A program made the translations under genes and the position numbers. A model generated the notes under the pieces. That model did no database searches. It was given only the letters and a program-made list of their open reading frames with translations, and was not told the DNA's origin. Below, piece after piece: positions 7,784 through 64,000 of a DNA stretch of 64,000 nucleotides. The DNA comes from Nostoc sp. CENA543 (GTDB taxonomy: Bacteria; Cyanobacteriota; Cyanobacteriia; Cyanobacteriales; Nostocaceae): the NCBI RefSeq assembly GCF_002896875.1, contig NZ_CP023278.1:6578501-6642500 (forward strand), written 5' to 3'. The stretch's first letter is position 1. The number at the start of each line of letters is the position of its first letter.

Positions 7784-8053
7784 ATGACACCATCAGTATC
7801 AGAAATAAGAGTACAAGATATTGACCACTGCGGCATAGTGGCAGGGATAGTTGACCAAATGTGTTTGGTAGAACAAATAAACCAAATACTAGGAACACAC
7901 CAGCAAGAAATAGTTAGCCCAGGTCAAGCAGTTAAAGCAATGATTCTCAACGGATTGGGGCCGTTAAGTGCGCCATTATACCTGTTTGAAAAGTTTTTTG
8001 TTGGCAAAGCCACAGAACATTTACTAGGGGAAGGTATAAAACTAAGAAGTTGA
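7784..8053 (+). pseudogene. Transposase N-terminal remnant (IS1634/DUF4277-like)
   Basis: An 89-residue ORF matching, as far as I recognise it, the N-terminal DUF4277 region of IS1634-like cyanobacterial transposases (IDHCGIVAGIVDQMCLVEQI, GQAVKAMILNGLG, SAPLYLFEKFF, KATEHLLGEGI). A complete transposase would be several times longer and carry a DDE domain. Here the reading frame ends four residues after LLGEGI, only 13 bp before the stop codon of the convergent TPR gene. It is therefore a truncated, non-functional relic. No matching far end of the element was found. Confidence 0.7.
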
Positions 8054-47109: not shown

Positions 47110-49542
47110 TTAACTTCTGAGGTTAACGCCAAATTTCTCAACTAAGGCTTCGCGGACTTTGTTGTGAACTGGCTCAACTTCGGTATCGGTGAGGGTACGA
47201 TCGCTCGCCCGATATACTAGACGAAAGGCTAAACTGCGTTGTCCTTGGGGGACGTTTTCACCACGGTATTCGTCAAACAGTTCTACAGATTCTAGTAAGC
47301 CTTTACCAGCTTTGTTAATCGCTTTTTCTAGTTCGGCGACGGAAACTTTCACCGGTGCGAAGAAAGCAATATCGCGATCGCTGGCTGGGTAGGTAGAATA
47401 GGCTTTAAATGCGGGGACGAGTATTTCGTCTTGGTCTATCGCATCTAACAGCACGTTTAAGTCTAACTGGAAGAGGTAAACCGATTCTGGTAAACCTTTA
47501 TCTCTGCGAATTTGGGGATGGAGTTGACCGAAGATACCTAAACTATTACCACGAATCCATAATGAGGCGGTGCGGCCTGGGTGCAGGCGTGCATCACGGC
47601 AATCGGGCTGATATTCTACTTGTATGCCTAATTGCTGGAAGACGTTTTCTAAAATTCCCTTGGCTTCAAACCAGGTCATGGGTTGTTCTTTGCCACCTTT
47701 TGACCATTTGCCCAGGGTTCTGTCTCCGCCCATGATACCAGCGATCGCATCTTTTTCTAACAGGCCCTCTTCTTCTTGCCAGAAAATTCGCCCAATTTCA
47801 AAACCGTTGAGAGAACCGTTACCTTGTTCGAGGTTGTATTGGAATGCGTCGATTAAACCGGAGATTAAATCGGTACGCAAGGCGGAATATTCGGTGAATA
47901 GGGGGTTACTTAAAACGATTTGTCGGCTATCTCCTGGTTTAACTAAGGAGTATTGCATTAACTCTGTTAAACCTTCTGCCCGTAAAGTGGCGCGTAACTT
48001 GCGGGTTAATTCTTGGTCTACGGGTAAATAACCGGCTTCGGCTTTGTCTGGTAAGGTATCACAGAAGTTATCGTAACCGTAGAGACGGGCGATTTCTTCT
48101 ATTAAATCAATTTCCCGTTCTAAGTCACGGTAGCGATAGGGGGGAACGGTGACGTTCCAAACTTTTTCGCCTGTGGTTGTGAGTTGACAACCCAAAGCTG
48201 TGAGAATTCTTTCTACGTCTTGTGCTGCTAATTCCCCAGTGTCACCTGAAACTACAGGCCCCAACAGTTCATTTACCCTGTCTAACCGTAGGGAAATGGA
48301 ACGACTCCAGGTAGAGGGGTCAGGACGGGTATCTGCAATTTCTTGGTGGACGATCACACCACCAGTTAATTCTATAATCAGGGACAACGCGCGACGACAA
48401 GCCACTTCTAATTCTGCACGGTTGACACCGCGTTCATATCTTCCAGAGGCTTCACTTCTTAAACCGACGCTGCGGGAAGAACGGCGAATGGCGACGGAAT
48501 CAAATAAAGCTGCTTCTAATACTAGGCTTTGTGTCCCGTCGTGGACTTCTGTTTCTTCGCCACCCATTACCCCTGCTAAAGCTACGGGTTTATTGTTGGC
48601 AGTAATTAATAAATTTTGGGTGGTTAAATTGCGAGTTTGTCCGTCTAGGGTTTTGAGAGTTTCGCCAGAGTTAGCAAAACGCACACCTATACTGAGGTTT
48701 TCACTAGCACCGACGGATTTTAAACGGTCTTTGTCAAAGGCGTGTAGCGGTTGTCCCCATTCTAGTAATACATAGTTAGTAATATCTACGACATTATTAA
48801 TGGGACGCACTCCCGCCGCCCGCAGACGTTGTTGTAACCATTCGGGGGAAGGGGCAATTTTCACATTATCAATGACTGTGCCGATGTAAGCCGGACAAGC
48901 TTGGGTATCAGCGATTTTTAAACTCAACGCCCCAGGGTTTTGAGATATGGAGATTTCCCCTGGTGCGGGAATGCTTAATTTAGCTGTGGTTAAAGCTGCA
49001 ACTTCCCGCGCTATCCCCACCATACTCAACGCGTCTGCACGGTTGGCGGTGGCGGTGACATCTAAAATTACGTCATCTAAACCCAATAGTGGACGGACAT
49101 CACTTCCCAAGGTCATATTTTCTTCAGGGAAAATATGAATTCCATCGACATCGGTGGGTAAACCGAGTTCTTTTAAAGAACAAATCATGCCTTGGGATGG
49201 AACACCGCGCAGTTTGGCGGGTTTGATTTTTAAATCGATATTGGGTAAATAAGTTCCTGTCGTCGCTACGGGAACGTAGATATCAGCCCGGACGTTAGCC
49301 GCACCACAGACAATATTTAAAGTTTCCGCCGCACCGATATCGACTGTGCAGACACTTAGTTTATCAGCGTTGGGGTGGGGTTGACGCTCAAGCACTCTTC
49401 CCACTACAACGCCGTCAGCCCATGTGCTACGGTCTTCAATGTCTTCGACTTCAAACCCTGCCATTGTCAAGGTTTCGGCTAGTTCAGTGTGGCTTAATTT
49501 TATCTCTACCAGTTCCCGCAGCCAATTTAGAGAGATTCTCAT
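47110..49542 (-). CDS. pheT: Phenylalanyl-tRNA synthetase beta subunit
   Basis: An 810-residue beta chain of the heterotetrameric Phe-tRNA synthetase. Domains in order: N-terminal strand ([20 protein letters not shown]), EMAP/OB-fold tRNA-binding domain ([20 protein letters not shown], about 45-150), B3/B4 editing domain ([28 protein letters not shown]), B5 (around 400-480), the catalytic-like core (GFEIGRIFW) and the C-terminal FDX-ACB anticodon-binding domain (AYPAS-like [18 protein letters not shown]). Length matches the family. pheS is not in the window, as is usual in cyanobacteria. Confidence 0.96.
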
Positions 49543-49630
49543 GGAGTGTGCTTGTTTTCAGACTTTTACTCTAATATTAGGTCGCCTCTGGTGTTTTGAG
49601 GTTTTCCCGTTCACCATCGTACTACGTTAG

Positions 49631-49678
49631 TTATTAGTCAATAGTCATTAGTCATTAGTCATTAGTCATTAGTCAGTA
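49631..49678. repeat. STRR heptamer tract (ATTAGTC units)
   Basis: Six heptamers of ATTAGTC or AATAGTC type between pheT and the AbrB pseudogene, nearly the same as 21464-21513. Confidence 0.85.
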
Positions 49679-49741
49679 GGGGCGGGTTCAGTAAGAGATT
49701 CACTTTGTCAAACAGATATGTTGGTTAAACCCGCCCGTACA

Positions 49742-50014
49742 TTAGTCAAGAATGTGTGGTGGTGCGTTTCTGCGGCGTTCAGCAATTAGTTCATCTGTTA
49801 AACTAATACTTTTTTGGATGTGGGCGAAACGGGTTTTTAGTCGCTGTCGGATGTTTTCTGGTTTCTCTAGTATCAGTCGTCCATCTTCTTGTCGCGCCAC
49901 TAATGTTTCTCTAGGTTCAAAGCCCAGAGATTTCCTCAGAGAAGCGGGAATCAATCATCATCCTTGTGCATCTAAACGAATTCTCGCATGGGTTGGGGTT
50001 GGGCTTTCAACCAT
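49742..50014 (-). pseudogene. AbrB/VapB-type antitoxin gene with two in-frame stop codons
   Basis: From ATG 50014 the frame reads MVESPTPTHARIRLDAQG, then TGA TGA, then LIPASLRKSLGFEPRETLVA and on to a normal end (RRRNAPPHILD). The conserved AbrB stretch would be DAQGRLxIPASLRKSLGF, so the stops occupy the positions of Arg-Leu with no length change. The frame is kept on both sides. It is therefore most likely an inactivated antitoxin-like gene. A shorter product from TTG 49954 is possible but would lack the first strand of the DNA-binding hairpin. No toxin gene follows. Confidence 0.75.
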
Positions 50015-50158
50015 ATCAATCCTCAAATTTGCTCATTTTTTTGATATCTACCGCTTTTTTACGTTTCATGGTGGCATATCGGAGTTGTGGACTGTGAGTT
50101 TTTAGATGATGTTTGACATAATTTCTCTTTGCTATTGAATAGTGTTTTTCTTTTGAAT

Positions 50159-51029
50159 GTTTTTGTCCCCTTGCGGGGAAAGGGTGGTGTTTAACAATTG
50201 GTGGAGTTATGGAAAATCAACAACAGGAGGGTTTAATGGGTAGGGCAGGGATGTTGGAATCCCCTTCCTCCCGACAAACCGGACAAGCAAGTTACCCTGC
50301 ATCCGGCTTTAGCAAACCCGAACGCTTACCAAAGACTCAATACCTCGTCTTCAGATTCATCTACTAATCCGACTGAGTGTATCGGAGGATAAAAGCAATT
50401 TTGTGTTTGCACAAGCACATCGCCTTGCAGATTTTACGCTTTCCCCTCTAGCTCTGAGACACCGCAGTTACCCGCAATACCCCTTCGGGTAGGTATTGGT
50501 TTAGACACTAACCAAGAGTATTTCTCAGATACTCACTCTCATGAGCGACTGATAGTCGCACCCGTGCCCGTGAAGGGGAATAAATGGAAAACTTTACTAA
50601 TGTCCCTAACTTTTACACGGGGTTAGGCTTGTTTCCGTCCCCGCAAAGGGGAATAAATGGAAAACCTGTTGATCCCGCAGAAGATCCAACCAGGAATTAA
50701 TTGAAGTTTCCGTCCCCGTGAAGGGGAATAAATGGAAAACTATTACTGGAAGTATTACGGTGTCGCTTTATAAAGGGTTTCCGTCCCCGTGAAGGGGAAT
50801 CAAATAGAAAACCTCTTGGCACCACTAAAGCATTAGAGTTGATTTTGCAAAGTTTCCGTCCCCGTGAAGGGGAATAAATGGAAAACGTTGGTTCTCTTTT
50901 TGCTAACGAAAAAAACTGAAAGGTTTCCGTCCCCGTGAAGGGGAATAAATGGAAAACCGATAAGGCGGCTGACGAATTAACAAAAGATAATTTCGTTTCC
51001 GTCCCCGTGAAGGGGAATAAATGGAAAAC
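50159..51029 (-). CRISPR. CRISPR array 1 (mosaic: eight repeats in reconstruction, one split by an intron)
   Basis: Seven 35-nt repeats reading GTTTCCGTCCCCGTGAAGGG then GAATAAATGGAAAAC on the plus strand. They lie at 50231-50234 plus 50562-50592 (split), 50631, 50706, 50777 (36 nt, one extra base), 50852, 50923 and 50995-51029. Spacers are 36-40 nt. On the minus strand repeats end ACGGAAAC, the usual crRNA tag end, so the array reads leftward and its leader should be right of 51029. At the far (trailer) end lies one 37-nt repeat of array 2 type (50159-50195, two mismatches) and a 35-nt spacer (50196-50230). No cas gene is in the window. Confidence 0.93.
50235..50561 (-). mobile_element. Small group II intron-like insertion inside a CRISPR repeat
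   Basis: On the minus strand it starts GTGCGACTATCAGTCGCTCA (group II 5' consensus GUGYG) and contains a domain V-like 34-nt hairpin at about 50276-50310 (AGCCGGATGC, GGTAAC, GTCCGGTTT). It is followed by a domain VI-like G/C-rich hairpin and ends CTACCCATT. No reverse transcriptase ORF is present. 327 bp is short for a whole intron, so internal domains may be missing. Removing it restores a 35-nt repeat exactly; the 3' end may shift by 1 base. Confidence 0.72.
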
Positions 51030-51429
51030 CCTACCCTTTTAGAATCGTGACTGTGACAGGGTTTGAGATAGTCATTTTAGCGGGGGGTCTAATTTACCTG
51101 TCAATAATCATAAATTATTGACAATAAAGCATCTATATACCCTACTCAAACCTTTGCCTAGTAAGCGATTCGCGGGGGTCAACGAAAGAATCAGAGTTTG
51201 AGCGATCGCCCTACCACCGCTAAAAATTTGCGTATGAGTTGTTAAAACAAACACTCATCGCTGCTATTGGGAAACATTTTTATGAAATTGTCATGGTTCT
51301 GCACTCTTGCCAGAGAGTATAACAGATGACCTAAAGCAGTTAATCACACCAACCATCAACCTGAGATAAATCTTTACTAATTAACCCAAATTAGACCAAA
51401 AATCTTACCCAATCCCCAATCCCCAATCC
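51030..51429. promoter_or_regulatory. Probable leader region of CRISPR array 1
   Basis: 400 bp of A/T-rich sequence next to the leader-proximal repeat, judged from repeat polarity and from the decayed repeat at the opposite end. It includes TGTCAATAATCATAAATTATTGACA (palindromic, about 51101-51125, AATAATCATAAATTATT core). An A/T-rich promoter directing transcription leftward is expected. No gene is present. Confidence 0.45.
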
Positions 51430-53481
51430 CTACTGATTAACTCGCCAAATCCTAATAGTATTATCTTCACTACCACTGACTAAACTTTGACCATCTGGTG
51501 TAAAAGCTACCGATGTCACCGTGTTTTCATGTCCTTCCAGCGTACTAATTTCATCGCCGGTTTCTAAGTTCCAGAGTTTGATAGTTTGGTCACGTCCAGC
51601 ACTAGCGAGAATTTTACCATCAGGACTAAAGGCAACTGCTGTGACTGTTTCTGTACTGCCTTTGAGGGTGCGGAGTCTTGTACCAGCTTGTAAATTCCAC
51701 AATTTAATTGTGCGATCGCGGCTAGCACTAGCAAGAATTTTACCATCAGGACTAAAGGCGATCGCTGTGACTGTTTCACCTTTGCCGCCAAAGGTGCGAA
51801 TCAGCGATTCCTCAGCTAAATTCCAGACTTTAATGGTTTTATCAAAACTACCGCTAGCAATAGTCTCACCATCGGCACTAATCGCTACTGATCTCACCCA
51901 AAATCTATGACCTCTGAGTGTAGTGATTAATCTACCACTGTTTAAATTCCAAACTTTGATCGTTTTGTCGTCACTCCCGCTTACCAAAGTTCTACCATCG
52001 GGACTGATAGCTAAGGCGTGAATAGCATCGCTATGGGCTGCTATGGCTTTGCTCATCTGATGGGTTTTCAGATTCCAAACTCTGATGGTGTTGTCGTCAC
52101 TACCACTGACTAAAGTTTTACCATCAGGACTGATTACAACTGCATTGACTGTAGCTGAATGTCCTTTGAGGGTAGCGATTTCTGCACCTGTTGTCAGATT
52201 CCACAGTTTAATCGTGCGATCGCCTCCACTACTAGCAATGATTTTACCATCGGGACTCACCGCAACTGAAGACACTGAATTTTTATGTGCTGGGAGGGTA
52301 TTAGCTAACACCACTTCTTGCGAAATCGGCTTTTGTGGCTGCACTAAAAACGCTTCCCCCGATGGAGAATTTTGCTGGTGGGGCATGAGTTTTGCAGATA
52401 AACTGCTATAAATGCGGCGATATTGGTAATACCAAGACTCACTAAACCCAAATAGCAAAATAAAAGCGGATACTAAAACCCCAATGCGAACTAACCCAGA
52501 CAAAATTGATAAACGCGGTGTTGGTGTTTTATGTACTTGAGTGCTGGGAATTTTTCCTGAAGATTGTCCGGCAGCAGGCAGGGCAAGGGGTTCTTTGGGT
52601 GTAATATCTTTGAGGACTTCATCGGCTGTTTGGTAACGGTCTTTGAGGTCTTTTTGCAACAGCTTGTCCAACACAAAATCTAAATCTGGACTGAGGGGAC
52701 GGTGCAAATATTGTCGCCAATGTGTTACCCAACCATAGCCGTGTTCCATCCACAATTGGAACGGCGAAACTCCAGTTAATAAATGAAAACAAGTAGCCCC
52801 TAAAGCAAACAAATCACTGGCAGCATAAGCCTTCCCATCGCGAATTTGTTCTAGGGGTGAGTAACCATGTGAACCGATTGATGTGCCGAAATTCTGTACC
52901 TTCGCCGTTAACTGTTTGGAAGAACCAAAATCAATCAAATTTAATCGTCCGTCACTGCGACAACGGATAATATTTTCTGGTTTAATATCACGGTGAATAA
53001 CACCGCGATCGTGAATAAATTTCAGCACAGGTATGATATCAAGTAAAATCGCTTGAATTTCACCTGGTCTATAGCTTTTGCGTTGCTTTAATTCCTTTAA
53101 CAAATTCTGTCCATTGATAAACTGCTGCACTAAATACAAACAGTTATCTTGTTCAAAATAAGCCAACAGCGTCGGAATTTGGGGATGTTCCCCTAATTCT
53201 TGTAAACGTTTGGCTTCTTGGGCAAATAATTCTACCGCCTTTTTTTGTGACCAAGTTCCTTGAAACTTTGGTGCTAATTGTTTGATGACACAATGTTCAT
53301 TCAATTTATCAGTATCTTCTGATAGATAAGTTCTACCAAAACCGCCTTCATCCGACAACATTCGGATCACACGAAAGCGATTTCTTAACAATGGTACTAA
53401 GGGAGTACCACAACTTTGGCATGACTTTTTACCATCAGAGTTCTGAGGGTTTGGACAGTCTGGATTTAAGCAGCAGATCAT
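51430..53481 (-). CDS. Ser/Thr protein kinase with WD40 repeats
   Basis: A 683-residue membrane protein. Cys-rich start (MICCLNPDCPNPQNSDGKKS, CQSCG) resembles a zinc ribbon. The kinase (about 35-300) has DEGGFGRTYLSED, CVIKQLAP, HRDIKPENII and LIDFGSSKQ, all intact. A transmembrane helix lies near 335 (LVRIGVLVSAFILLFGF). The C-terminal half has seven WD40 blades (VSPDGKIIASSGGDRTIKLW, FSPDGKILASASRDRTIKLW and others), forming an extracytoplasmic propeller. Start at ATG 53481 is preferred to the longer upstream ATG because the Cys motif begins there. It lies between the two CRISPR arrays, but nothing suggests a linked function. Confidence 0.9.
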   Translation of the reverse strand: MICCLNPDCPNPQNSDGKKSCQSCGTPLVPLLRNRFRVIRMLSDEGGFGRTYLSEDTDKLNEHCVIKQLAPKFQGTWSQKKAVELFAQEAKRLQELGEHPQIPTLLAYFEQDNCLYLVQQFINGQNLLKELKQRKSYRPGEIQAILLDIIPVLKFIHDRGVIHRDIKPENIIRCRSDGRLNLIDFGSSKQLTAKVQNFGTSIGSHGYSPLEQIRDGKAYAASDLFALGATCFHLLTGVSPFQLWMEHGYGWVTHWRQYLHRPLSPDLDFVLDKLLQKDLKDRYQTADEVLKDITPKEPLALPAAGQSSGKIPSTQVHKTPTPRLSILSGLVRIGVLVSAFILLFGFSESWYYQYRRIYSSLSAKLMPHQQNSPSGEAFLVQPQKPISQEVVLANTLPAHKNSVSSVAVSPDGKIIASSGGDRTIKLWNLTTGAEIATLKGHSATVNAVVISPDGKTLVSGSDDNTIRVWNLKTHQMSKAIAAHSDAIHALAISPDGRTLVSGSDDKTIKVWNLNSGRLITTLRGHRFWVRSVAISADGETIASGSFDKTIKVWNLAEESLIRTFGGKGETVTAIAFSPDGKILASASRDRTIKLWNLQAGTRLRTLKGSTETVTAVAFSPDGKILASAGRDQTIKLWNLETGDEISTLEGHENTVTSVAFTPDGQSLVSGSEDNTIRIWRVNQ

Positions 53482-54105
53482 GTTCTGATAAGTGCGGCTG
53501 CGTGACAAATGGACTTGACTAAAATATCTCCCCGATTTCCTCAAGAATTCAGGGATCTAATTTTCGCGATTGATATGGTAAATCTGGTAAATGCTATGAC
53601 AAACAGGTAAAAGACAGGAGATAAAAGCACTTTCCTGACTAAATTGATTTCTACCTGATTAGTTATTCCCTCGATTATAGAAGATTCCGTAATAAAAGGG
53701 GATTGGGGATTGAGGTCTTTGTGCTGAGTGCAAAATCTGGCTTGATCCCCGCTTAAGCACGCAACTGAAGCTCGTCAGGGATTTTCGGACAAAGCAAGGA
53801 CAAAGGCACCCATTATGGCTGGTACTGGTGTTGGTGACTATAGTAACAATGAGTGGTTGTGTAGGTTACAGAGGTTTAGGAGATTTCGTCGAACGCCATC
53901 ACCAATCATTAAGGGACTTCCAATTAAAACAATATACTATCACTTTGAAGGCAAGGGAGCAGGGGGAAAGATGGTTGTTTTGAAACAGAGAAATTGGATA
54001 ATTTATTTTCTGGAAGTTCCTAATGAATCCTAAGAGTTGTTTTTGATAACGCATGACTGTAAAAGGCTAAAAATAATAATGTGTTATGCGTTTAAGGTTG
54101 TATCG

Positions 54106-54219
54106 CAATACCTCTCGGTTAAGGAATTGGGAGTGACTTTTACTCACGAAGTTATCATGGTTTTAAGCGTGTAACCTGCTCCAATTTTGACAGGATTAGG
54201 GCTTAACCGAAAAGTATTG
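54106..54219. mobile_element. MITE with 18-bp terminal inverted repeats
   Basis: Ends CAATACCTCTCGGTTAAG (54106-54123) and CTTAACCGAAAAGTATTG (54202-54219) match at 16 of 18 positions. An inner pair AATTGGGAG/CTCCAATT adds to the stem. The 8-mer TTGTATCG flanks both sides (54098-54105 and 54222-54229), consistent with a target duplication. The 950-bp gap 53482-54431 otherwise has a doubtful 72-codon ORF (53815-54033) and the hairpin at 54362-54386. Confidence 0.65.
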
Positions 54220-54361
54220 GATTGTATCGTGGTTAGCGATCGCAAATCAAGTAAAAGCAATATTTTGTTGCTTATGATGTTCTAAGCAATATTAGGGGTG
54301 TGGGGAGAAGTTATAGATTTTGTGGAAGCGATAAACGCACCGATAGTAACCTGAAAAAATT

Positions 54362-54386
54362 CCCCCTTCCCTACAAGGGAAGGGGG
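54362..54386. terminator. G/C-rich hairpin after the aldehyde dehydrogenase gene
   Basis: Arms CCCCCTTCCCT and AGGGAAGGGGG with loop ACA, 46 bp past the stop codon of the leftward aldehyde dehydrogenase gene. It is a copy of the dispersed CCCTTCCCT palindrome and could act as terminator. Confidence 0.5.
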
Positions 54387-54431
54387 TTAGGGGGTTAGGT
54401 TAAACCTAAATTTCTCTAACTAACGCACCGA

Positions 54432-55814
54432 CTACTTAATAATTCGCTTGAGTAAAGATAATTTATCTTTGTATGGTGCGTATCGCCAGTTTAAGTCTAA
54501 CCAGAAGGAATTTTTTAAAACACTTTTGTAATGTGAGAAAGTGTCGAAACTGGTTTTACCGTGATAACTACCAATACCACTATCACCAACACCACCAAAG
54601 GGTAATGATGAAACACCGACTTGCATAATGGTGTCATTTAGACAGACACCACCGGATGAGGTTTCCTGCAAAATGCGTGTTTGCAATTGCTTGTTTTGGG
54701 AAAATAGGTATAAAGCCAGGGGTTTTGGTCGAGAATTGATGAGAGCGATCGCTTCTGTAATGTCTGTGTATTCTAAGATGGGTAAAATCGGCCCAAATAT
54801 CTCCTCTTGCATCACAGGAGCATCCAGAGAGACATGATCAATTAATGTGGGTGAGATATATAATTGCTCAGGATTGGTATCACCACCCAGGATGATTTCA
54901 CCGTGATTGAGTAACTGCGTCAATCGTTCAAAATGTCTTTTGTTAATAATTCTGCCATAATCGGGACTGTTTTCTGGGCGATCGCCATAAAATTCTTTGA
55001 TGTTTTTTTGCAAAGCTGCAATTAAATCCTGCTTGATTTGGCGATTTACTAACAGATAATCAGGAGCAATACAAGTCTGTCCACAATTGAGAAATTTACC
55101 CCAAACAATTCTTTTGGCTGTATATTCAAGATTAATTTCAGTATCGACAATGCAGGGACTTTTGCCACCTAATTCTAAAGTCACCGGAGTAAGATGTTTT
55201 GCGGCTGCTGCCATGACAATTTTACCGATGGCTGTACCGCCAGTAAATAAGATGTGATCAAACTTTTCTTGGAGTAATTCCTGACTAGTTTCTACACCAC
55301 CTTCTACTATGGTGATAAACTCTGGGGGAAAATATTTACTAACTAATTGCGCTAATAAATTAGATGTGTGCGGCGCAAGTTCTGAAGGTTTAACAATAGC
55401 ACAATTACCAGCCGCGATCGCACCTACTAAGGGAGAAATAACTAATTGAAAAGGATAGTTCCAAGGGCCGATAATTAACAGATTTCCCAGGGGTTCTGGA
55501 TAGATTTTAGCGGAGTAAGGAAAAAATTCCGAAGGTACATCTGCCTTTTTAGGTTTAGCCCAACTTTTGAGATGTTTGATAGCATAGCTAATTTCTTTAA
55601 CTGCACTAATTTCTGTAGCGTAGACTTCAAACTCTGGTTTGTGTAAATCGGCTTTTAAAGCCTTGATAATTAATGGTTGCTCATTGGTAACTAATTCCTT
55701 GAGCTTTTTTAATTGTTCTAGGCGAAAATCGATATCTTTAGTTTTACCAGTTTGGAAGAAATTTCTCTGTTTTTGTAAAATTTCTGGAATGTTAGATTTT
55801 GCAACTGTAATCAT
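54432..55814 (-). CDS. Aldehyde dehydrogenase (ALDH3-like)
   Basis: A 460-residue NAD(P)-dependent aldehyde dehydrogenase that oxidises aldehydes to acids. The active site is visible: IGPWNYPFQL (NAD-binding side), GGTAIGKIVM, LELGGKSPCIV (catalytic Glu), FLNCGQTCIAPDYLL (catalytic Cys), PVMQEEIFGPILP and LPFGGVGDSGIGSYHGKTSF. A hydrophobic/basic tail (NSFWLDLNWRYAPYKDKLSL) fits ALDH3-type members that associate with membranes; in cyanobacteria such enzymes may act on fatty or apocarotenoid aldehydes. Substrate is inferred loosely. It appears to be a single gene. Confidence 0.92.
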   Translation of the reverse strand: MITVAKSNIPEILQKQRNFFQTGKTKDIDFRLEQLKKLKELVTNEQPLIIKALKADLHKPEFEVYATEISAVKEISYAIKHLKSWAKPKKADVPSEFFPYSAKIYPEPLGNLLIIGPWNYPFQLVISPLVGAIAAGNCAIVKPSELAPHTSNLLAQLVSKYFPPEFITIVEGGVETSQELLQEKFDHILFTGGTAIGKIVMAAAAKHLTPVTLELGGKSPCIVDTEINLEYTAKRIVWGKFLNCGQTCIAPDYLLVNRQIKQDLIAALQKNIKEFYGDRPENSPDYGRIINKRHFERLTQLLNHGEIILGGDTNPEQLYISPTLIDHVSLDAPVMQEEIFGPILPILEYTDITEAIALINSRPKPLALYLFSQNKQLQTRILQETSSGGVCLNDTIMQVGVSSLPFGGVGDSGIGSYHGKTSFDTFSHYKSVLKNSFWLDLNWRYAPYKDKLSLLKRIIK

Positions 55815-55844
55815 TGTTTCCTCACAGATAATTTTATTTAGTGC

Positions 55845-55990
55845 TGAGTGGAAAGTGCTGAGTTGTGAGTTTTGAGTTGTGAGTTTGTGAGTTTTGGGCT
55901 TTGAATTTTAGGTTTTGAGTATAATTTTTCTTACTCAGCACTCATCATCGGCTAAACGCCGCGCTACCGCTAACAGCACTCATCACTTCA
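55845..55990. repeat. Repeat-filled gap (TGAGT/AGTGCTGAG tracts and dispersed element)
   Basis: Begins with degenerate GTGCTGAG/TTGTGAGTTTTGAG heptamer-like repeats (55845-55920) and ends with a copy of the GCTAACAGCACTCATC/GGCTAAACGCCGCGCTACCG element (55932-55990) also found at 5421, 5785 and 24926. No gene is present. Confidence 0.65.
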
Positions 55991-55994
55991 TCAC

Positions 55995-57095
55995 TCATCC
56001 CTTCGCTAAAGAGACAATAAACACACTACCTTTTCCTAATTCAGAATTGACAACTATATTACCGTGATGGGCTTCGACGATGCGCCGGGAAAGATATAAC
56101 CCCAAACCACTACCGGAAATTTTGTGACTACCTTGGCGGAATCTTTCAAAGAGTGTGGCTTGTTCTGTGGGTGAAATTCCCCTTCCGGTGTCTGCTATCT
56201 CTATATTTATATATTTACTGTCATAGGGAGAAGATTTCAGGCGGATAGTCACTGAACCAGACTCAGTAAACTTGATGGCGTTACCGATGAGGTTGGTAAA
56301 TAGACGATGTAATTCCAAGCGATCGCCTGTCACGGTGGTAGAATTTTCTGTATCATCAAACTCTAGATGGATGCTTAAATTTTTGGCTTGGGCTAGAGTT
56401 GTGAGTTCCCCCGCTACTTCTTGGAGTAATTGACTTAATTTCACTGGTTGAAACGCCAAGGTTTTTCGCCCAGCTTCAAAGCGATAAACTTCTAATAAAG
56501 TATTCACCATCGATAGCAAATTACTATTGCTACGCCCCATAATGACAATCGCTTCTTGCATTTGTGGTGATAATGTACCAAGCGCGCCTTGTTCAAATAG
56601 CGTCAACATTCTGTCAGCTGCTACTAGGGGAGTGCGTAAATCATGGGTGAGACGAGAGACAAAATCCTCTCGCTGACGGGCGATTTCATCCCGTTCATCC
56701 ATACTATGCTTTAACCGTAACAGCGATCGCACTCTGGCTAATAATTCATCCACCGTCACAGGTTTGCGGATAAAATCATCAGCACCCAAATCTAATCCTT
56801 GGGCTACATTCGGTGCATCATGGGCGGTAATTAAGAGTATGGGGATATATTGCTGTAATTGCATTTCCCCACGAATGCGCCTAGTGACTTCATAACCATC
56901 TATTCCTGGCATCATTAAATCTAGCAGTACCAAGTCACAAGGAGATGCTTGCAGTTGTGCTAGTGCGGAATAACCGTTTTCTGCTGTAGCGATGGTATAG
57001 CCTTCTTCCTCCAAAATGGTTTTAATGAGAAACACATTATCAGGAGAGTCATCGACTACTAAAATTTTGCCAGAGCGCGAAGTATGTGAACTCAT
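55995..57095 (-). CDS. Response regulator-histidine kinase (receiver first)
   Basis: A 366-residue cytoplasmic signalling protein. The N-terminal receiver (5-125) has VVDDSPDNVFLIK, DLVLLDLMMPGIDGYEV (phospho-Asp), LLITAHDAP and FIRKPVTVDELL. A HisKA domain follows (VSRLTHDLRTPLVAADRMLT with the phospho-His) and a HATPase (NLIGNAIKFTESGSV, IADTGRGISPTEQ, SGSGLGLYLSRRIVEAH). This receiver-before-kinase layout is common for cyanobacterial sensors controlled by another kinase. All catalytic residues are intact. The partner kinase is not identified. Confidence 0.92.
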   Translation of the reverse strand: MSSHTSRSGKILVVDDSPDNVFLIKTILEEEGYTIATAENGYSALAQLQASPCDLVLLDLMMPGIDGYEVTRRIRGEMQLQQYIPILLITAHDAPNVAQGLDLGADDFIRKPVTVDELLARVRSLLRLKHSMDERDEIARQREDFVSRLTHDLRTPLVAADRMLTLFEQGALGTLSPQMQEAIVIMGRSNSNLLSMVNTLLEVYRFEAGRKTLAFQPVKLSQLLQEVAGELTTLAQAKNLSIHLEFDDTENSTTVTGDRLELHRLFTNLIGNAIKFTESGSVTIRLKSSPYDSKYINIEIADTGRGISPTEQATLFERFRQGSHKISGSGLGLYLSRRIVEAHHGNIVVNSELGKGSVFIVSLAKG

Positions 57096-57113
57096 GAGAC
57101 ACCGAGATAAATC

Positions 57114-57146
57114 AATTCAAAATTCAAAATTCAAAATTCAAAATTA
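57114..57146. repeat. STRR heptamer tract (AAAATTC units)
   Basis: Four AAAATTC heptamers just upstream of the response-regulator kinase gene, the same unit as at 4257-4280. Confidence 0.8.
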
Positions 57147-57217
57147 AAGACGGACACCCGAAAGGGTTTCCCGACTTGAAATAACTGGCGTTGGGTATTC
57201 TAAATACCTTCTCTACA

Positions 57218-57351
57218 AGCTGACTTTTCACGGGATCTGGAAAACCCCTCCTACAAGGAGAGAGGCTTTAATTTTCCCCTTTCCCTATTAGGGAAGGGGG
57301 TTAGGGGTTAGGTTTTACGTTAACTTTTCCACATAACATGAAAAGTCAGCT
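57218..57351. mobile_element. MITE with 13-bp perfect terminal inverted repeats
   Basis: AGCTGACTTTTCA (57218-57230) and TGAAAAGTCAGCT (57339-57351) enclose 108 bp that includes the CCCCTTTCCCTATTAGGGAAGGGG palindrome, given here as arms CCCTTTCCCTA and TAGGGAAGGGG. No ORF. It lies in the gap upstream of CRISPR array 2. Confidence 0.6.
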
Positions 57352-57795
57352 CTATAAAAGGCTACGCCAAGGGAAACAAGGGATTTTGAACAAAGTACGG
57401 TTTTGAACCTAACTTTTTCCTATAACAATAGGGTTTGGCTCAAGGTGAATTGTTTGTTTTTGTAACGAAAACTGTTGTTTTTTGGTGTGCTGTCAATTTT
57501 GAAAATAGCTTATTGATAAGCTTTTGGGAGTATGTTACGCAATGTAAAGTTGAATTGAAATTTATCGCTGCAAGTTATTACAAGATTTTAAGAGTAATTT
57601 GCAAAAATTAGCAGCTAATATAGGTTTTTAGTCTTGACTCCTTAGCATTTTTCCGTTAGATTGTCCATGTTGCTAATTTTTGAGAAAAAATTATCTGCAA
57701 TTCAGTAATTATTTTTTTGATACATCGCCGTTTTCCGTACTCCGGCGCAACCGAACCTTGAAAACTAAATATATCAATAGTTTCCACAGGGTAGG
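57352..57795. promoter_or_regulatory. Probable leader region of CRISPR array 2
   Basis: 444 A/T-rich bases directly before the first repeat of array 2 (57796), the side where repeat polarity places the leader. No gene or repeat family is evident apart from A/T tracts such as TTTTTTTGGTG at 57476-57490. It should drive transcription to the right. Confidence 0.5.
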
Positions 57796-59566
57796 GTTAA
57801 ACACCACCCTTTCCCCGCAAGGGGACGGAAACCATCAAAGCACTTGTGGCCATTAGGTACGTTATAAGAATCTTGGGGAAGTTAAACACCACCCTTTCCC
57901 CGCAAGGGGACGGAAACTGAGTATCGTTCTTCCATGCTTGGATGTAGTTACTAGGGTTAAACACCACCCTTTCCCCGCAAGGGGACGGAAACGGCACTAG
58001 CCCGATCATCATCAAACTTCAGAGATTTTAGGGTAGTTAAACACCACCCTTTCCCCGCAAGGGGACGGAAACTTACCGTCTAAGATTACTTTATCGCCTG
58101 CTGTAAACATAGGTCAGTTAAACACCACCCTTTCCCCGCAAGGGGACGGAAACAACCCTTAAAAGAAAAATAGACAATAATCCCCTAGAGTTCTGTTAAA
58201 CACCACCCTTTCCCCGCAAGGGGACGGAAACTTGATAACGGTCTCTTGTTCAAAAATATTCATATATAGGTTAAACACCACCCTTTCCCCGCAAGGGGAC
58301 GGAAACCAGTATCAAGGGAAATTTGAATAAGTAAACCTAGACAAAATCTAAGTTAAACACCACCCTTTCCCCGCAAGGGGACGGAAACCTTAAATACAAA
58401 AATGTACAAATAGAATTAAAAGTAGGTTAAACACCACCCTTTCCCCGCAAGGGGACGGAAACTACAGCACTATCTTTAAGATTAGGAGAGGTAGCTGAAC
58501 AGGCTATTCAGGTTAAACACCACCCTTTCCCCGCAAGGGGACGGAAACAGGCGTTGGCTTTACTATTGGACACCAACGGTTCGGCTAACGTGTTAAACAC
58601 CACCCTTTCCCCGCAAGGGGACGGAAACACATATCATCTCTTGTTTTACAAAAACTTTGGAAAGGTTAAACACCACCCTTTCCCCGCAAGGGGACGGAAA
58701 CCTATGGGGTCTAGTGTGTTGTCTCTACCATAGTTGTTAAACACCACCCTTTCCCCGCAAGGGGACGGAAACTATAGTTTTCAAAAAGTAGATGACTTAA
58801 TTTGGTATGTAAATGAGTTAAACACCACCCTTTCCCCGCAAGGGGACGGAAACCTCATATCTTTTGTAGCAGTCATACAATAGTTTTCCGTTAAACACCA
58901 CCCTTTCCCCGCAAGGGGACGGAAACTCCGAAACCGTGGTCTTCAAGCACACAACAAGTTAACGGTTAAACACCACCCTTTCCCCGCAAGGGGACGGAAA
59001 CTCTGAATGTACTCAGAAGACAACCTGAGGTTATTAGTGTAGTGGATGGGTTAAACACCACCCTTTCCCCGCAAGGGGACGGAAACTACTTGTAAGGAAA
59101 ATCGGTTATCCCTATGATCGCACAGGCGTTAAACACCACCCTTTCCCCGCAAGGGGACGGAAACTTCCTTTATTTGTCTGTCAAGGGTTCCCAGCAGAGA
59201 AAAATGTTAAACACCACCCTTTCCCCGCAAGGGGACGGAAACTTGCTAAGTTATCAACTGGGCGATCGCCCGACGAAGTAGCAGAGGTTAAACACCACCC
59301 TTTCCCCGCAAGGGGACGGAAACATGATAGCTTTCATTATCTTCTCAGCTTCAGGCATATGAGAAATCTGTGCTAGGTTAAACACCACCCTTTCCCCGCA
59401 AGGGGACGGAAACAACAGGGTATGACATTTACCCCGTAATCTTGACGACTTGTTAAACACCACCCTTTCCCCGCAAGGGGACGGAAACGCTGCGTTGTAT
59501 GCGAGTTGAGTTGCAAAGGTTGTCTTACCGTTAAACACCACCCTTTCCCCGCAAGGGGACGGAAAC
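57796..59566 (+). CRISPR. CRISPR array 2 (23 repeats, 22 spacers)
   Basis: Twenty-three identical 37-nt repeats starting GTTAAACACCACCCTTTCCC and ending GCAAGGGGACGGAAAC (starts at 57796, 57881, 57956, 58036, 58117, 58195, 58270, 58352, 58426, 58512, 58592, 58665, 58736, 58817, 58890, 58965, 59050, 59128, 59206, 59287, 59377, 59452 and 59530). Spacers are about 36-53 nt. The ACGGAAAC end is the expected crRNA handle side, so the array reads rightward. After a 26-nt spacer comes a decayed repeat of array 1 type (59593-59626). Hairpin core CCCC...GGGG. Subtype is not decidable without cas genes. Confidence 0.97.
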
Positions 59567-59592
59567 TTTGAAGGGTCGGACAAAGACGGGCG

Positions 59593-59626
59593 GTTTTCCA
59601 TTTATTACCCTCCACGGGGACGGAAC
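59593..59626 (+). CRISPR. Orphan, decayed repeat of array 1 type at the end of array 2
   Basis: 34 nt reading GTTTTCCATTTATTACCCTC then CACGGGGACGGAAC. It differs from the array 1 repeat (in its minus-strand orientation) by two substitutions and a missing A. The spacer before it is 26 nt, shorter than the others. Confidence 0.8.
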
Positions 59627-59761
59627 TCATTCAATAACTTGGTAAGCTGTTAAAGATGGAAATCGCATAGCCAGGGCGGGCAAGATGCCCACCCCACAAG
59701 ACTTAGCAGCAATTTTCAGCAAGCCCTAATTCCCTATCCCATGCCCCATGCCCCATGCCCA

Positions 59762-61645
59762 TCATCTATTCATCGGCCAAGATAATTGACAAATAGTACC
59801 ATGTGGACAAAGGGGCGATCGCTCGAATTTTCCTTGTAGTTGTTTGGCTAGATTTATAAACTGTTGCGTTCCTCTTCCGGCTTTACTAGCGGTACATCCT
59901 AAACCATTATCAATGACGCTCAGGGTGTAGTAACCTTCAGATATTGTGCAAGTAACTTGTAGGCGGGTTGCACCTGTGGCGTGTTTACCAACGTTACATA
60001 AGGCTTCTTCTAAAAATCTGCAAATTCCTCGCTTGTGTTCAATAGTTAAAAATCTTTCGTCTATGGGTTCAAAAGTCCGAATTTTGATTCTAATATTCTT
60101 AAAACCAGGAAAATCCCTTTCTAAAGTATAGGTATACACTTGATAGAGTAGGTCATGCAGGGGTTCTTGTAAGTTTAATACTAGGTCATTGCCTAAATAA
60201 AGACTCGTATCTTGGTCTAGGGATTCTTGCTGTAAATATTCATAGATTCCCCTTAATTCATAATTTAATTTCTCTAGTTCTTCTGCTATGACTGGAATAA
60301 TTTCTTGGTTAGATTCATCTTGACCACGTAGCAGTTGTAGAACTTTCGCTAAACTTTGCAAGGGGCCATTATGAATAGTTTCAAAGGTGCTTTCTATAAT
60401 CGCTTGGCGGATTTTGATACCGGAACGTAAAGCTTGGTCATATTGGTATAAAGCTGTGAGTTCCATACCATTCACAATCAAGACTAAAATGGCAGGAATG
60501 AACGGAATCCACCAACCAAAAATCAAACTGAAATAACAAATTAATCCTAAACTAACACTCGCTAAAACAACGATAATTAAGTTATTTAAGGGTGATTTAG
60601 TTAGTCTAGCAATGGCAATTCCGCACACACCCCAAACGAAAATCCAGAAATATTCCCATTGGTCATTCCATGTATTTAATAAAGGTCTTTCATTGAGGAC
60701 AGCACTAATAATTTGACTGGTAGCATGGGCTTGGACTTCTACACCATAAATTCGCCCTTTACTGATTTGGTTGGATGGAATAGCAGTAGTAGTAAAAAAA
60801 TCTTTGCGGCTAGGTGCAGTGATACCAATGATAATGATGCGATCGCGTAACCATGTTGGGTTTACTTTACCACGTTTGATATCACTGCTAGAAACAGTCC
60901 GAAATCGGGCGTGACCACTGCGAAAATTGAGTAAAACCTGGACTCCGCCTGCATCGGTGTGGATATATCCCCCAGAGTTGGGGAGAAAGCGGGGTAGTTC
61001 AGTTTTGCCAAATCGCATAGCCGCGCGATCGCGTCTGCCATTTTCTAAGACAATATGGTTACGGGCTAAATAAGCGGCTGATAATCTAATTGATAAAGAT
61101 AACTTGTAACCTTGGAGTGTGGGTGTCCCTAATAAAATTCTTCTTAATTTACCATCAATATCTGTAATTTGGTCGGCAAATCCTACTTGTTCAGGCGGAA
61201 TTTTTGGTGGCGGTGGAATTGGTTCAGGTAAAACTTTTTCAATGGCGATAATGTTGGGTGATTTTTGTAAAATTGCGGCTAGTTTATCGTGATTTGTGTT
61301 GACTGGTGGATTTTGATAAATATCTAAACCGATAACTCTAGGTTGATATGTCTGCAATTTTAATAACAAAGTAGCTAAATCATGGTTAGAAATTACAGCA
61401 TCTGATTGATAGTAATTATGATGACGAACATCTTCTTCATCAATACCCACAATCACAATTCTCTCATCAATAGATTCTTCTGGACGCAACCGCAAAAAAT
61501 TATCAAATGCTAGCCACTCGACAGATTGCATTAAACCCATGTAGCGCGCTAATATTACTAGTCCAATGACTGCACATCCTGGTAATATACCCACACGCCA
61601 CATAGCAATTTCTGCTTTAATAACATTCCAAAATCCAGGCGGCAT
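59762..61645 (-). CDS. CHASE2-domain sensor histidine kinase (NarL-type)
   Basis: A 627-residue membrane sensor. A first transmembrane helix (VGILPGCAVIGLVILARYMG) precedes an extracytoplasmic CHASE2 domain (about 40-320; DERIVIVGIDEEDVRHHNYY, RDRIIIIGITAPSRKDFF). Three more helices (YFWIFVWGVCGIAIARL, LIIVVLASVSLGLICYFS, FIPAILVLIVNGMELTAL) follow. The kinase has HisKA_3-type HNGPLQSLAKVLQLLRG (phospho-His) and ATP-binding FLEEALCNVGKHATGA (N-box), VIDNGLGCTASKAGRG. It is the third gene of an operon with a LuxR-type regulator and a kinase-like protein. The signal is unknown. Confidence 0.92.
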   Translation of the reverse strand: MPPGFWNVIKAEIAMWRVGILPGCAVIGLVILARYMGLMQSVEWLAFDNFLRLRPEESIDERIVIVGIDEEDVRHHNYYQSDAVISNHDLATLLLKLQTYQPRVIGLDIYQNPPVNTNHDKLAAILQKSPNIIAIEKVLPEPIPPPPKIPPEQVGFADQITDIDGKLRRILLGTPTLQGYKLSLSIRLSAAYLARNHIVLENGRRDRAAMRFGKTELPRFLPNSGGYIHTDAGGVQVLLNFRSGHARFRTVSSSDIKRGKVNPTWLRDRIIIIGITAPSRKDFFTTTAIPSNQISKGRIYGVEVQAHATSQIISAVLNERPLLNTWNDQWEYFWIFVWGVCGIAIARLTKSPLNNLIIVVLASVSLGLICYFSLIFGWWIPFIPAILVLIVNGMELTALYQYDQALRSGIKIRQAIIESTFETIHNGPLQSLAKVLQLLRGQDESNQEIIPVIAEELEKLNYELRGIYEYLQQESLDQDTSLYLGNDLVLNLQEPLHDLLYQVYTYTLERDFPGFKNIRIKIRTFEPIDERFLTIEHKRGICRFLEEALCNVGKHATGATRLQVTCTISEGYYTLSVIDNGLGCTASKAGRGTQQFINLAKQLQGKFERSPLCPHGTICQLSWPMNR

Positions 61646-61790
61646 AAATTAATTCTCCAACCTTTAATAAAAGAGGGAATTGGGCATTGGGCATGGAAGA
61701 GGAATTGGTGCAGGGTGCAGGGTGCAAGGGGGAGAAAATTTTCCCCATTTCTCCCTGCCCCCCTACCTTCTTTCATCTCCCAGTCCCCAA

Positions 61791-62468
61791 CTAATCAATT
61801 AACCCCTCATCCCTCGCCCTCATTTCTGTCTGAATGCGGATGTTTTTACCCTGATCTGGATACAGTTCTAAAGCGTCTTGTAATTTACTCCAGTAATGTC
61901 TAACCATCCTTTCGGATATACACATTTTTTGAGCGATCGCTTTATCTTGTAAACCTTCATCAAATGCTAAACTAAGTACCTGTAACCACTCTGGCTTAAT
62001 TTCTAATCCTGTATGAATTCCTTTGATGTCTTTTGTATGGGTTAGTCCTTGTAATGCCCAATCAACTCTAGTTAACATTTCCTGAGTAGTTAGACTTTTA
62101 TCCGCAACTGTAAAACCTCCTTTATGACTATCAATTTCAGGTTTAATTCTCACTAATGTTCTGATATGCGCACTTTGTACAACAATATTGAGTTCAGGGT
62201 AATTTTTCATCAAAGTTCTGAGTAGTTGTACACCGTTTTCAGGTTTTGCTGTCGTTCCTATATTTTTAGGAAGTGACAAGTCCATAATCACAACATCTGG
62301 TTGTAAAATACTGATTTGCTCTAGAGCTAAAAAAGCATTGATAACAGTGATAATTTCTGCATCAACATAATGTTTTTTTAATACTGCTACTGTCCCACTT
62401 AAAACTGATTCATGGTCATCAATGACTAAAATTTTGAGGAGTGTTTTCTGAGTTAATAGTTGTTGCAT
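61791..62468 (-). CDS. LuxR/NarL-family response regulator
   Basis: A 225-residue two-component regulator. The receiver has LVIDDHESVLSGTV-like ILVIDDHESVLSGTVAVL, VVIMDLSLPKNIGTT (phospho-Asp) and ADKSLTTQEML. The C-terminal helix-turn-helix is DEGLQDKAIAQKMCISERMV, then RHYWSKLQDALEL. An AGAGAG site 8 bases before ATG 62468 supports that start over a GTG 9 bases upstream. It lies between the kinase-like gene and the CHASE2 kinase, and is the probable phospho-acceptor of the latter. The target promoters are unknown. Confidence 0.9.
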   Translation of the reverse strand: MQQLLTQKTLLKILVIDDHESVLSGTVAVLKKHYVDAEIITVINAFLALEQISILQPDVVIMDLSLPKNIGTTAKPENGVQLLRTLMKNYPELNIVVQSAHIRTLVRIKPEIDSHKGGFTVADKSLTTQEMLTRVDWALQGLTHTKDIKGIHTGLEIKPEWLQVLSLAFDEGLQDKAIAQKMCISERMVRHYWSKLQDALELYPDQGKNIRIQTEMRARDEGLID

Positions 62469-62648
62469 AATTAACACTCTCTTGAAGAATATTGGTATTG
62501 ATTTTGAGGGATAAATTTCCTTGACAGCAAAGCTGGTACTCGGTTTTGTTCGACTAACTTTATCTGCATCTAGTGAAATTATTCTATCGGTAAAACACTT
62601 AATTCAATAACCTAAAGACGTACAAAGTAAAAGTTTCTGAGACAATAA

Positions 62649-63308
62649 TTACCAAGATAAATGCCAAATAATTTGGCAATGACTAGCACGATAAAAACAT
62701 CTACCGGAAGTTAAAAATTGGAATGTATCACAAAGATATTTTAATTCTGTTGAGTTAGTGTGACACATAAAACTAGTAATATCAGGATAGTTAATCTGTA
62801 TTTTTAATTGACCCTGATTTTTTTGCTGTTTCAAGCTAATATAAATTGTAATACTTGTAATAATATTTGACAGATTTATTGCCAATAGTTCATCTAAGAT
62901 TGATAAAACTGTCAAACTATGAAATGCTTGTTCTTGTCGCCAGTAAACAGGCAAGTCTAGATGGAAATATAAATGAGGATTAATAGCTAGCCACGGTTCT
63001 ATTAAGCACTCAATAGCTAGCGGAAAACTATCTGGAAGTGATTCGGGAAATAAACGGTTGCTTAATTGTACTAAAGAATGATGGAAGTTATCAATTTGTC
63101 TCAAATAATCCTGAGTTTGGTGGTTGGATAAATTGAGATTATTTGATGTTAGTACATCTAAATGGCGGCGGATTGTAAAAGTTTCTTGCAATAAATCATC
63201 CCGAATTTTCTCGGCTTCCACAAAAAGTTTTGTTGACTGTCTGGAAGACCACCATTGCAATGCTTGTTGAATTCTCTGATAAGATGGCAGAAATTTCACA
63301 AGGGTCAT
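62649..63308 (-). CDS. Hypothetical, degenerate histidine-kinase-like protein
   Basis: A 219-residue protein at the head of the sensory operon. The N-terminal half is a helical bundle (IRDDLLQETFTIRRHLDVLT, DYLRQIDNFHHSLVQLSNRL) resembling a dimerisation/HisKA_3 layout, with HSL as a possible His site. The second half resembles an ATPase-fold sheet (LKIQINYPDITSFMCH-like strands) but lacks recognisable N, G1 or G2 boxes. So it may be an inactive kinase-like adaptor for the CHASE2 kinase and regulator that follow. The assignment is tentative. The basic, aromatic C-terminus (FYRASHCQIIWHLSW) is unusual. Confidence 0.55.
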   Translation of the reverse strand: MTLVKFLPSYQRIQQALQWWSSRQSTKLFVEAEKIRDDLLQETFTIRRHLDVLTSNNLNLSNHQTQDYLRQIDNFHHSLVQLSNRLFPESLPDSFPLAIECLIEPWLAINPHLYFHLDLPVYWRQEQAFHSLTVLSILDELLAINLSNIITSITIYISLKQQKNQGQLKIQINYPDITSFMCHTNSTELKYLCDTFQFLTSGRCFYRASHCQIIWHLSW

Positions 63309-63341
63309 AGTTTATAGGGAACGGGGAATAGTCAAACAATT

Positions 63342-63535
63342 TTGGATTTTGGATTTTAGATTTTAGATTGACCCCGACCACAGTAGCGAACATAGCACAA
63401 CGATTATTTTAGATTTATTCCGCCACGCTACTTCTCTTAAGTCAGGAAAACAGACCACGAGAGTGGCTTCAAAAGGGGCAGTATAAACCAAAAAAACCTC
63501 AATCCAAAATCCAAAATTTAAAATCTAAAATTCGG
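63342..63535. repeat. STRR tracts (TTTTGGA and TCCAAAA heptamers), inverted pair
   Basis: TTTTGGATTTTGGATTTTAG-type heptamers at 63342-63370 and their complement type (ATCCAAAATCCAAAA) at 63500-63535 face each other across 130 bp, so the stretch could form a large stem. The 247-bp gap to the HlyD gene has no ORF. Confidence 0.65.
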
Positions 63536-63555
63536 GGGTCAATAGTTTCTCCTAA

Positions 63556-64000
63556 TTACAAGTCAGTAATTAACCTAGCTTTTCTGAGGATGAATTGTAA
63601 TGCTGTTTCTTGTTGGGAAATAATATTAGCCTCAGCGTTCATCCCTGATTGAATTTGACATTGCTGTTGTTCGTGACCGAATTTTTGGCTTTCTGGTTGA
63701 ATTGTCGCCTCAAAATAGCTCTCGCTGGGGGTGACAGTGTTATTATCGTTGCGTTGTGGTGTGATGCTATCGGGGGAAATCGCCTGCACTTGACCTTGAA
63801 GAGTGCCATAATCTGGGTAGGGACAAGCATTCACTCGCAGTTGTACTTTTTGTCCTACAGCAACTTTTTTAATGTCTGCGGTGGGAATCATGGCTTTGAC
63901 AATTAACGGTGTATTTTGGGGTACAATCTCTGCGATCGCTTCACTAGCGCGTACTACTTGGCCTGGGTTACGTAAATTGAGTTTGAGAACTATACCATCA
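63556..64000 (-). CDS. HlyD-family membrane-fusion protein, C-terminal part
   Basis: A partial type I secretion adaptor protein running off the right edge. Visible are SEAIAEIVPQNTPLIVKAMI (beta-barrel/linker), DIKKVAVGQKVQLRVNACPY (HlyD signature region), QVQAISPDSITPQ and the C-terminal GMNAEANIISQQETALQFIL, KARLITDL. HlyD proteins link an ABC exporter in the inner membrane to an outer-membrane channel across the periplasm. The N-terminal membrane helix lies beyond the window. The exporter it serves is not next to it here, and the ABC exporter at 13-16 kb is too far to call an operon. Confidence 0.88.
   Translation of the reverse strand, partial: DGIVLKLNLRNPGQVVRASEAIAEIVPQNTPLIVKAMIPTADIKKVAVGQKVQLRVNACPYPDYGTLQGQVQAISPDSITPQRNDNNTVTPSESYFEATIQPESQKFGHEQQQCQIQSGMNAEANIISQQETALQFILRKARLITDL

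Follow-up and report, generated by a model that had tools for sequence, protein, structure and literature searches.

The 327-nt insert that interrupts a CRISPR repeat in the window (the whole 64,000-nt stretch of Nostoc sp. CENA543 DNA analysed here) is in our estimate, with a probability of roughly nine in ten, an internally deleted descendant of mobile group II introns whose lineage homes into CRISPR repeats. Sequence comparison indicates that a clade of these introns is found recurrently at one exact position inside the CRISPR repeats of many genomes, and we read it as a lineage specialised for this target, with splicing from the array transcript and effects on crRNAs as predicted consequences. 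The initial annotation had described a group II intron-like element inside a CRISPR repeat. It was right that group II intron sequence is placed precisely in the repeat but incomplete, as the copy is internally deleted and the insertion is not a one-off event.

The insert occupies positions 50235–50561 of the minus strand, with its 5′ end at 50561 and its 3′ end at 50235. Its length and its GTGCGAC start on that strand were confirmed in the sequence, and it ends with CCCATT. As had been proposed, GTTT at 50231–50234 and the segment 50562–50592 are the two pieces of one split 35-nt repeat, which when joined reads GTTTTCCATTTATTCCCCTTCACGGGCACGGAAAC on the minus strand and carries a single mismatch to the array consensus. 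The repeat is thus cut into 31 + 4 nt (..GGCACGG/intron/AAAC): its first 31 nt (50562–50592, minus strand), including the hairpin and IBS1 (..GGCACGG), form the 5′ exon, and its last 4 nt, AAAC (50231–50234, minus strand), the 3′ exon. The domain V- and domain VI-like hairpins claimed earlier were supported by Rfam model RF00029 (domain V plus VI; gathering score 40), which matched 50235–50311 of the minus strand with 51 bits (E 4.4e-07 over the whole window) in the cmscan search and covered model positions 1–77 of 77. This segment, which ends in ...CUACCCAUU, also pairs consistently in the alignment described below. Folding of the insert strand was better than that of 100/100 shuffled sequences (z −3.92). 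No target duplication surrounds the insert, as the initial annotation had stated and as is expected after retrohoming.

Both elements reported beside the insert are present, namely a 35-nt spacer (50196–50230, minus strand) trailer-side of the split repeat and a terminal repeat of the other type (50159–50195, minus strand). This repeat is array-2-like (CRISPR-DR57/DR18-like), and its CRISPR-DR57 score of 36.9 bits lies below the gathering score of 39. Six more array 1 repeats with spacers (50631–51029, minus strand) lie beyond the intron, towards the presumed leader. The array had been read on the plus strand, but the GAAAC end of the repeat and the intron lie on the minus strand, which is presumably the strand of the array transcript. 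A second array of 23 CRISPR-DR57 repeats is located at 57796–59566, ~7 kb from array 1. Among the ORFs of at least 100 aa in 49500–64000, judged without a family search, no cas gene was recognised, and both arrays of the window may be orphan. A search with the flank 49740–50230 against 13 genomes of the genus, the own genome included, gave matches in 7/13 and revealed no syntenic empty allelic site; among the matches listed, those away from the own locus fell on the CRISPR-repeat part, except one short match in G011.

The genome carries a full-length relative of the insert, a 2452-nt intron at C1:1757379–1759830. RF00029 matched it with 51 bits over its full length, and it encodes an intact 589-aa protein with RVT_N, RVT_1, GIIM and HNH domains (TIGR04416, 339 bits; cut-off 300). 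The window insert is 96% identical to nt 1–142 of this intron and 90% identical to its last ~200 nt, and the two domains V are identical. Both segments of the relative align to insert nt 128–142, which marks the junction zone of the internal deletion at 50420–50434 (minus strand). The window copy is without the RT gene, domains II–III and most of domain I, including the EBS1 loop at nt 266 of the relative. From what is established about group II introns, self-splicing of this copy is therefore very unlikely, since the complete domains I–III with EBS1 of a splicing-competent intron are absent from it. It resembles ORF-less and fragmented group II introns in having both ends and no ORF. Unlike ORF-less working introns, it is further missing domains II–III and the greater part of domain I and is a remnant, apparently a dead deletion derivative of the CRISPR-repeat intron lineage. 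Because no other miniature of this intron was found in the own genome, deletion after insertion is the simplest history; insertion of an already shortened copy is a possible alternative. The relative is flanked by ..CCCCGCAAGGGGACGG and AAAC and lies within an array of GTTTCCATTAACCTTTTCCCCGCAAGGGGACTGAAAC repeats. Its repeat differs from that of the window, and the insertion position is the same (..GGGGACGG / AAAC).

To see how often this arrangement recurs, genomes were searched with the first 550 nt of the relative. Matches were obtained in 39/192 genomes of the family, 28/388 of the order and 10/386 of the phylum, the three sets being drawn samples that overlap. At the fetched loci, 5′ junctions of GTGCGACTAT-type introns, degenerate ones included, could be read at 26 distinct places plus 4 more, i.e., 30 in total; places with the 5′ end beyond the match were examined in part, among those listed, and one junction (L090) was left out as its flank was masked as N. 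The 30 junctions came from 20 genomes, 18 of them in the family of the window and 2 (G393 and G416) in one other family of the order. The carriers probably include Mastigocoleus testarum BC008, a Mastigocoleus MAG, Calothrix parasitica NIES-267 and Nostoc edaphicum CCNP1411, whose family we infer to be Nostocaceae.

All 30 clade junctions look like a hairpin-type end of a CRISPR repeat followed by a tag (hairpins were judged by eye and are imperfect in the window copy and G013). The tag reads GGGGAYKG, GGAGATGG or AGGGATTG, with two degenerate forms, GGGCACGG in the window and GGGGATGA in L031. At 28/30 junctions (25/26 and 3/4 in the two sets), the stretch contains additional copies of this repeat end, counted over 24 nt with no more than 4 mismatches. 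The exceptions, L031 and L149, have no further copies, yet show a repeat-like hairpin plus GATGA/GACTG at the junction. Intron-like sequence outside CRISPR repeats, which the initial annotation had named as counter-evidence, was not encountered among the readable clade junctions, none of which lies clearly outside a CRISPR-type repeat. The introns begin with GTGCGAC at 25/30 junctions; the others, starting with GTACG (2), GTTAG, AACCG and ATGCA, look like degenerate copies. In every junction read, the intron has the orientation of the repeat. When the intron was removed from the 14 copies with both ends, the restored repeat had 0 mismatches to the array consensus in 9 cases, 1 in 3, 2 in 1 and 6 in 1, the last being G013, whose neighbouring repeats are few and divergent. 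The 3′ exon is AAAC in 13/14 copies and AAAA in the remaining one. Many of the clade matches are truncated, and the longest ORF has 566–597 aa in 8/12 copies and 255–513 aa in 4/12. All four copies of Nostoc edaphicum have a shortened longest ORF (255–513 aa) and no full RT frame. Two relatives whose standing is doubtful had no array nearby: L048 (Nostoc sp. MG11), a sequence with a broken RT and 64.6% DNA identity over nt 901–1970 of the relative, and the cyanobacterial 56-nt fragment L067.

Sister introns found by the same query served as a built-in control. None of the 12 sister junctions read in the first set is in a CRISPR repeat, and the count is also 0 at each sister junction listed in the second. 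In a tree of 40 RT rows, from which the broken RT of L048 was left out, the 8 CRISPR rows stand on one side of a branch with support 100/100, and no array was found near the other 32 rows, some of whose stretches are short. A 20-mer spacing test likewise detected no array in the stretches of the RT relatives outside the clade (L040–L067), most of which are non-cyanobacterial with 31–42% identity (L040, L048 and L067 are cyanobacterial), and there was none near the RT of the Chlorohelix and Chondrocystis plasmid relatives (56–57%). A single gain of the CRISPR habit would suffice to account for this distribution. An ordinary homing intron might also have happened on repeats that are abundant in these genomes. 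Indeed, GGGGAYKGAAAC has 197 matches in the genome vs 7 for a reversed control, and the 100 listed of the 197 are mostly at array spacing, so that any intron with this IBS1 would land mostly in arrays. We consider such an accident very improbable in view of the neighbouring repeat copies at 28/30 junctions vs 0/12 for the sisters, the fit of EBS1 to the repeat tag and the single RT clade. What may remain of it is that tag specificity is all the specificity there is.

The full-length lineage has domain V, a GUGYG-type 5′ end, an RT with maturase, an EBS1–IBS1 match and no target duplication. In a 14-row alignment (10 distinct rows), the catalytic AGC of domain V is invariant in 14/14 rows, and the basal helix of domain V is 100% paired with 3 compensated pairs. 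The D1D4 match of the clade reached 26.9 bits, below the gathering score of 34. Group II introns usually end in AY. The clade ends in ..CCCATT (AUU, readable in 14 members) and its terminal UU departs from this rule; a target of the form ..GG/AAAC requires an intron ending in ..AUU. The four aligned sisters end in ..CCCGAC.

The targeting of the clade was then analysed through a loop of domain I that aligns at one place and reads CTGTCC, CTATCC or CAATCC, taken as EBS1. CTGTCC and CTATCC pair at 6/6 positions with GGAYGG (1–2 of the pairs being G–U), and CAATCC pairs 6/6 with GGATTG (G048a) and 5/6 with GGATGG (G184, G185a, G185d and G048b); G393 has 5/6 pairs. Allowing G–U, EBS1 and its own IBS1 pair at 6/6 positions in 7/12 clade rows and at 5/6 in 5/12. 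With the loop position fixed, the 10 sister rows gave 6/6 in 5, 5/6 in 4 and 4/6 in 1, the full matches being AAGAAA/TTTCTT (twice), AAGCAA/TTGCTT, TAGAAT/ATTCTA and CTTCCT/AGGAAG. The fixed loop replaced a free search over a 40-nt region, which had overstated two sister rows (x_L092 and x_L113) whose best match lay outside the loop. The sister loops averaged 5.4 pairs with their own exon vs 3.9 with other exons, and the clade loops averaged 3.5 with sister exons. When exons were redealt among loops, the observed sum was reached in 0/20000 permutations, whether the sisters were taken by themselves or all 22 rows together, these rows being related and not independent. The contrast within the clade is weak (own exon 5.58 vs other clade exons 5.08) because the clade exons are alike; clade loops fit other clade exons almost as well, and the covariation therefore rests mainly on the contrast with the sisters. 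The covariation marks the aligned loop as EBS1, with guide and target changing together between the groups. The loop CAATCC would match GGATTG tags perfectly, but the introns of G184, G185a, G185d and G048b that carry it are found in GGATGG repeats, where one position is mismatched; they look adapted to a different class of repeat.

IBS1 extends from the end of the hairpin 3′ arm through nt 1–4 of the 8-nt crRNA tag. Class C introns recognise hairpins at terminators and attC sites. The same intron family might accordingly choose its target mainly via the DNA hairpin of the repeat, extruded as a cruciform, with EBS1 pairing only secondary. A hairpin-type sequence, as judged by eye and with imperfect ones in G013 and the window copy, lies directly upstream at the 30 sites, identical introns occur in repeats that differ just upstream of IBS1 (CAGCGG for G113a, TTACGG for G113b), and one EBS1 mismatch is tolerated in 5/12 clade rows, all of which would suit hairpin recognition. 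We regard it as the less likely reading, however, since the overlap of IBS1 with the 3′ arm makes an intact hairpin and full EBS1 pairing mutually exclusive, and the sisters use the same EBS1 loop at sites where no comparable hairpin was noticed by eye. In addition, the protein carries an HNH domain, which is absent from class C introns, grouped as En-minus in passages of a 2015 review (PMC4424553).

Evidence of recent movement into CRISPR repeats came from pairs of identical copies. The two copies of G113 are identical over 2458/2458 nt and those of G184 over 2388/2388 nt, and in both genomes the two copies lie in arrays with different repeats. By sequence this amounts to recent movement, which presumably proceeded by reverse splicing and reverse transcription. 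Nostoc edaphicum has four copies, three in arrays of the plasmid pNe_2 (typed as conjugative) and the fourth on a 7.7-Mb contig from this assembly; two of the pNe_2 copies have the same orientation, are ~2.75 kb apart and have the same repeat on both sides. The plasmid also encodes an RT-Cas1 fusion (RVT_1 + Cas_Cas1; L111 7566–9587) near a second cas1, cas2 and the three CRISPR-inserted introns. Its proximity to three copies would be compatible with spacer-like integration of intron cDNA by Cas1, possibly by this RT-Cas1. We find that scarcely credible, for the junctions already disfavour it: insertion is 4 nt into the repeat and not at its border, no repeat duplication flanks the intron, and full-length copies have exact intron ends. 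As to viral carriers, no RT relative was found in viral_contigs and no DNA match to the intron in 50,697 phage records; 18 viral stretches contain a 16-nt junction pattern, none of them continuing into the intron (at most 26/60 nt alike). None of 176 spacers from 24 loci, cut by the tag pattern and partly repeated since two loci overlap, is clearly aimed at the intron (best 13 nt exact or 15/16).

The mechanism that we propose starts from a full-length element of ~2.4 kb, consisting of the ribozyme domains and an RT-maturase-HNH protein. Its EBS1 (CTGTCC, CTATCC or CAATCC) would pair with the 6 nt immediately preceding the insertion site (..GGAYGG or ..GGATTG), a stretch made up of the terminal part of the hairpin 3′ arm and the four leading nt of the crRNA 5′ tag. 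The intron RNA would then reverse-splice between these 6 nt and AAAC in the repeat orientation, and the RT would copy the RNA into DNA. After such a sense insertion, excision of the intron from the pre-crRNA by splicing would make the repeat whole again. Cas6 normally cuts such repeats 8 nt from their 3′ end. Because IBS1 overlaps the hairpin and this expected site, the intron would need to be spliced out before Cas6 cleaves; EBS1 pairing would thus be in competition with Cas6 binding, and after cutting by Cas6 the intron would retain a 5′ exon of 4 nt. The window copy, having lost EBS1, most of domain I, domains II–III and the ORF, would now just split its repeat.

The placement of the introns within arrays bears on whether they serve the array. 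More repeats lie on the leader side in 11/14 copies, equal numbers on both sides in 3 and fewer in 0, with counts limited by stretch length and the leader inferred from repeat direction. Together with the repeat orientation in all junctions read, this position toward the trailer end could mean that the intron is kept for the benefit of the array, e.g., by setting the amount of trailer-side crRNA or by ending the array. Many copies are truncated or have shortened ORFs, however, and an unsystematic look revealed no locus that keeps the intron across genomes. The trailer-end position is explained equally well by array ageing or by selection against disrupting or blocking newer spacers. We consider retention for such a benefit improbable.

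Compared with known systems, the clade is close to the sister mobile introns (e.g., those of Plectonema cf. radiosum, L040, and a Nostoc sp. HK-01 plasmid), which are like it in the ribozyme 5′ end and domain V, have an RT/maturase/HNH protein ~60–65% identical and carry the EBS1 loop at the same aligned place. The sisters differ in that their junctions were read outside CRISPR repeats and the four aligned 3′ ends are ..CCCGAC, whereas the clade combines ..CCCATT with an EBS1 for the CRISPR tag. In the class C layout, IBS1 follows the hairpin. Group IIC introns at terminators and integron attC sites likewise use a dispersed, non-coding, hairpin-bearing target class, and an element with such a target spreads without breaking genes. 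The present lineage does not fit the description of group IIC, as its targets are CRISPR repeats, its protein contains HNH and its IBS1 overlaps the hairpin arm. Nor is it an RT-Cas1 system, in that its RT lies inside a ribozyme intron with domain V within an array and lacks a Cas1 fusion, the protein of the own-genome relative (P0001) containing no Cas1 domain.

Three target specificities of bacterial group II introns, i.e., homing sites, terminator motifs and attC sites, are distinguished in the consulted passages of the 2015 review (PMC4424553). The part of the open-access literature that was covered, including passages of PMC5513706, PMC8919778 and PMC4424553, yielded no account of group II introns located in CRISPR repeats. 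We lean toward the view that CRISPR repeats constitute a dedicated fourth target class, in which the guide of the intron matches the crRNA 5′ tag and arrays, including those of a conjugative RT-Cas1 plasmid, act as many-copy safe havens and carriers. Splicing would in that case be coupled to crRNA maturation, downstream crRNAs being produced only from repeats spliced before Cas6 cuts. If this is true, the precursor RNA of an immune system contains a self-splicing intron, and splicing and Cas6 would contend there for the same few nucleotides; movement of the intron could be a present-day route bringing intron RTs next to cas genes. Being natural and directed to the common GAYKGAAAC tag, such an intron might also find use as a tool.

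Two minor observations concern the array that holds the full-length relative. The host repeat of this intron (L005 ~7832–7840) reads GGGGACGG, its array GGGGACTG, and the change improves pairing with EBS1 CTGTCC; either a variant repeat was chosen or a compensating change arose later. A transposase-like ORF, recognised by eye, lies between repeats of the same array (L005 8192–9070), which thus seems to have been hit by two kinds of mobile element.
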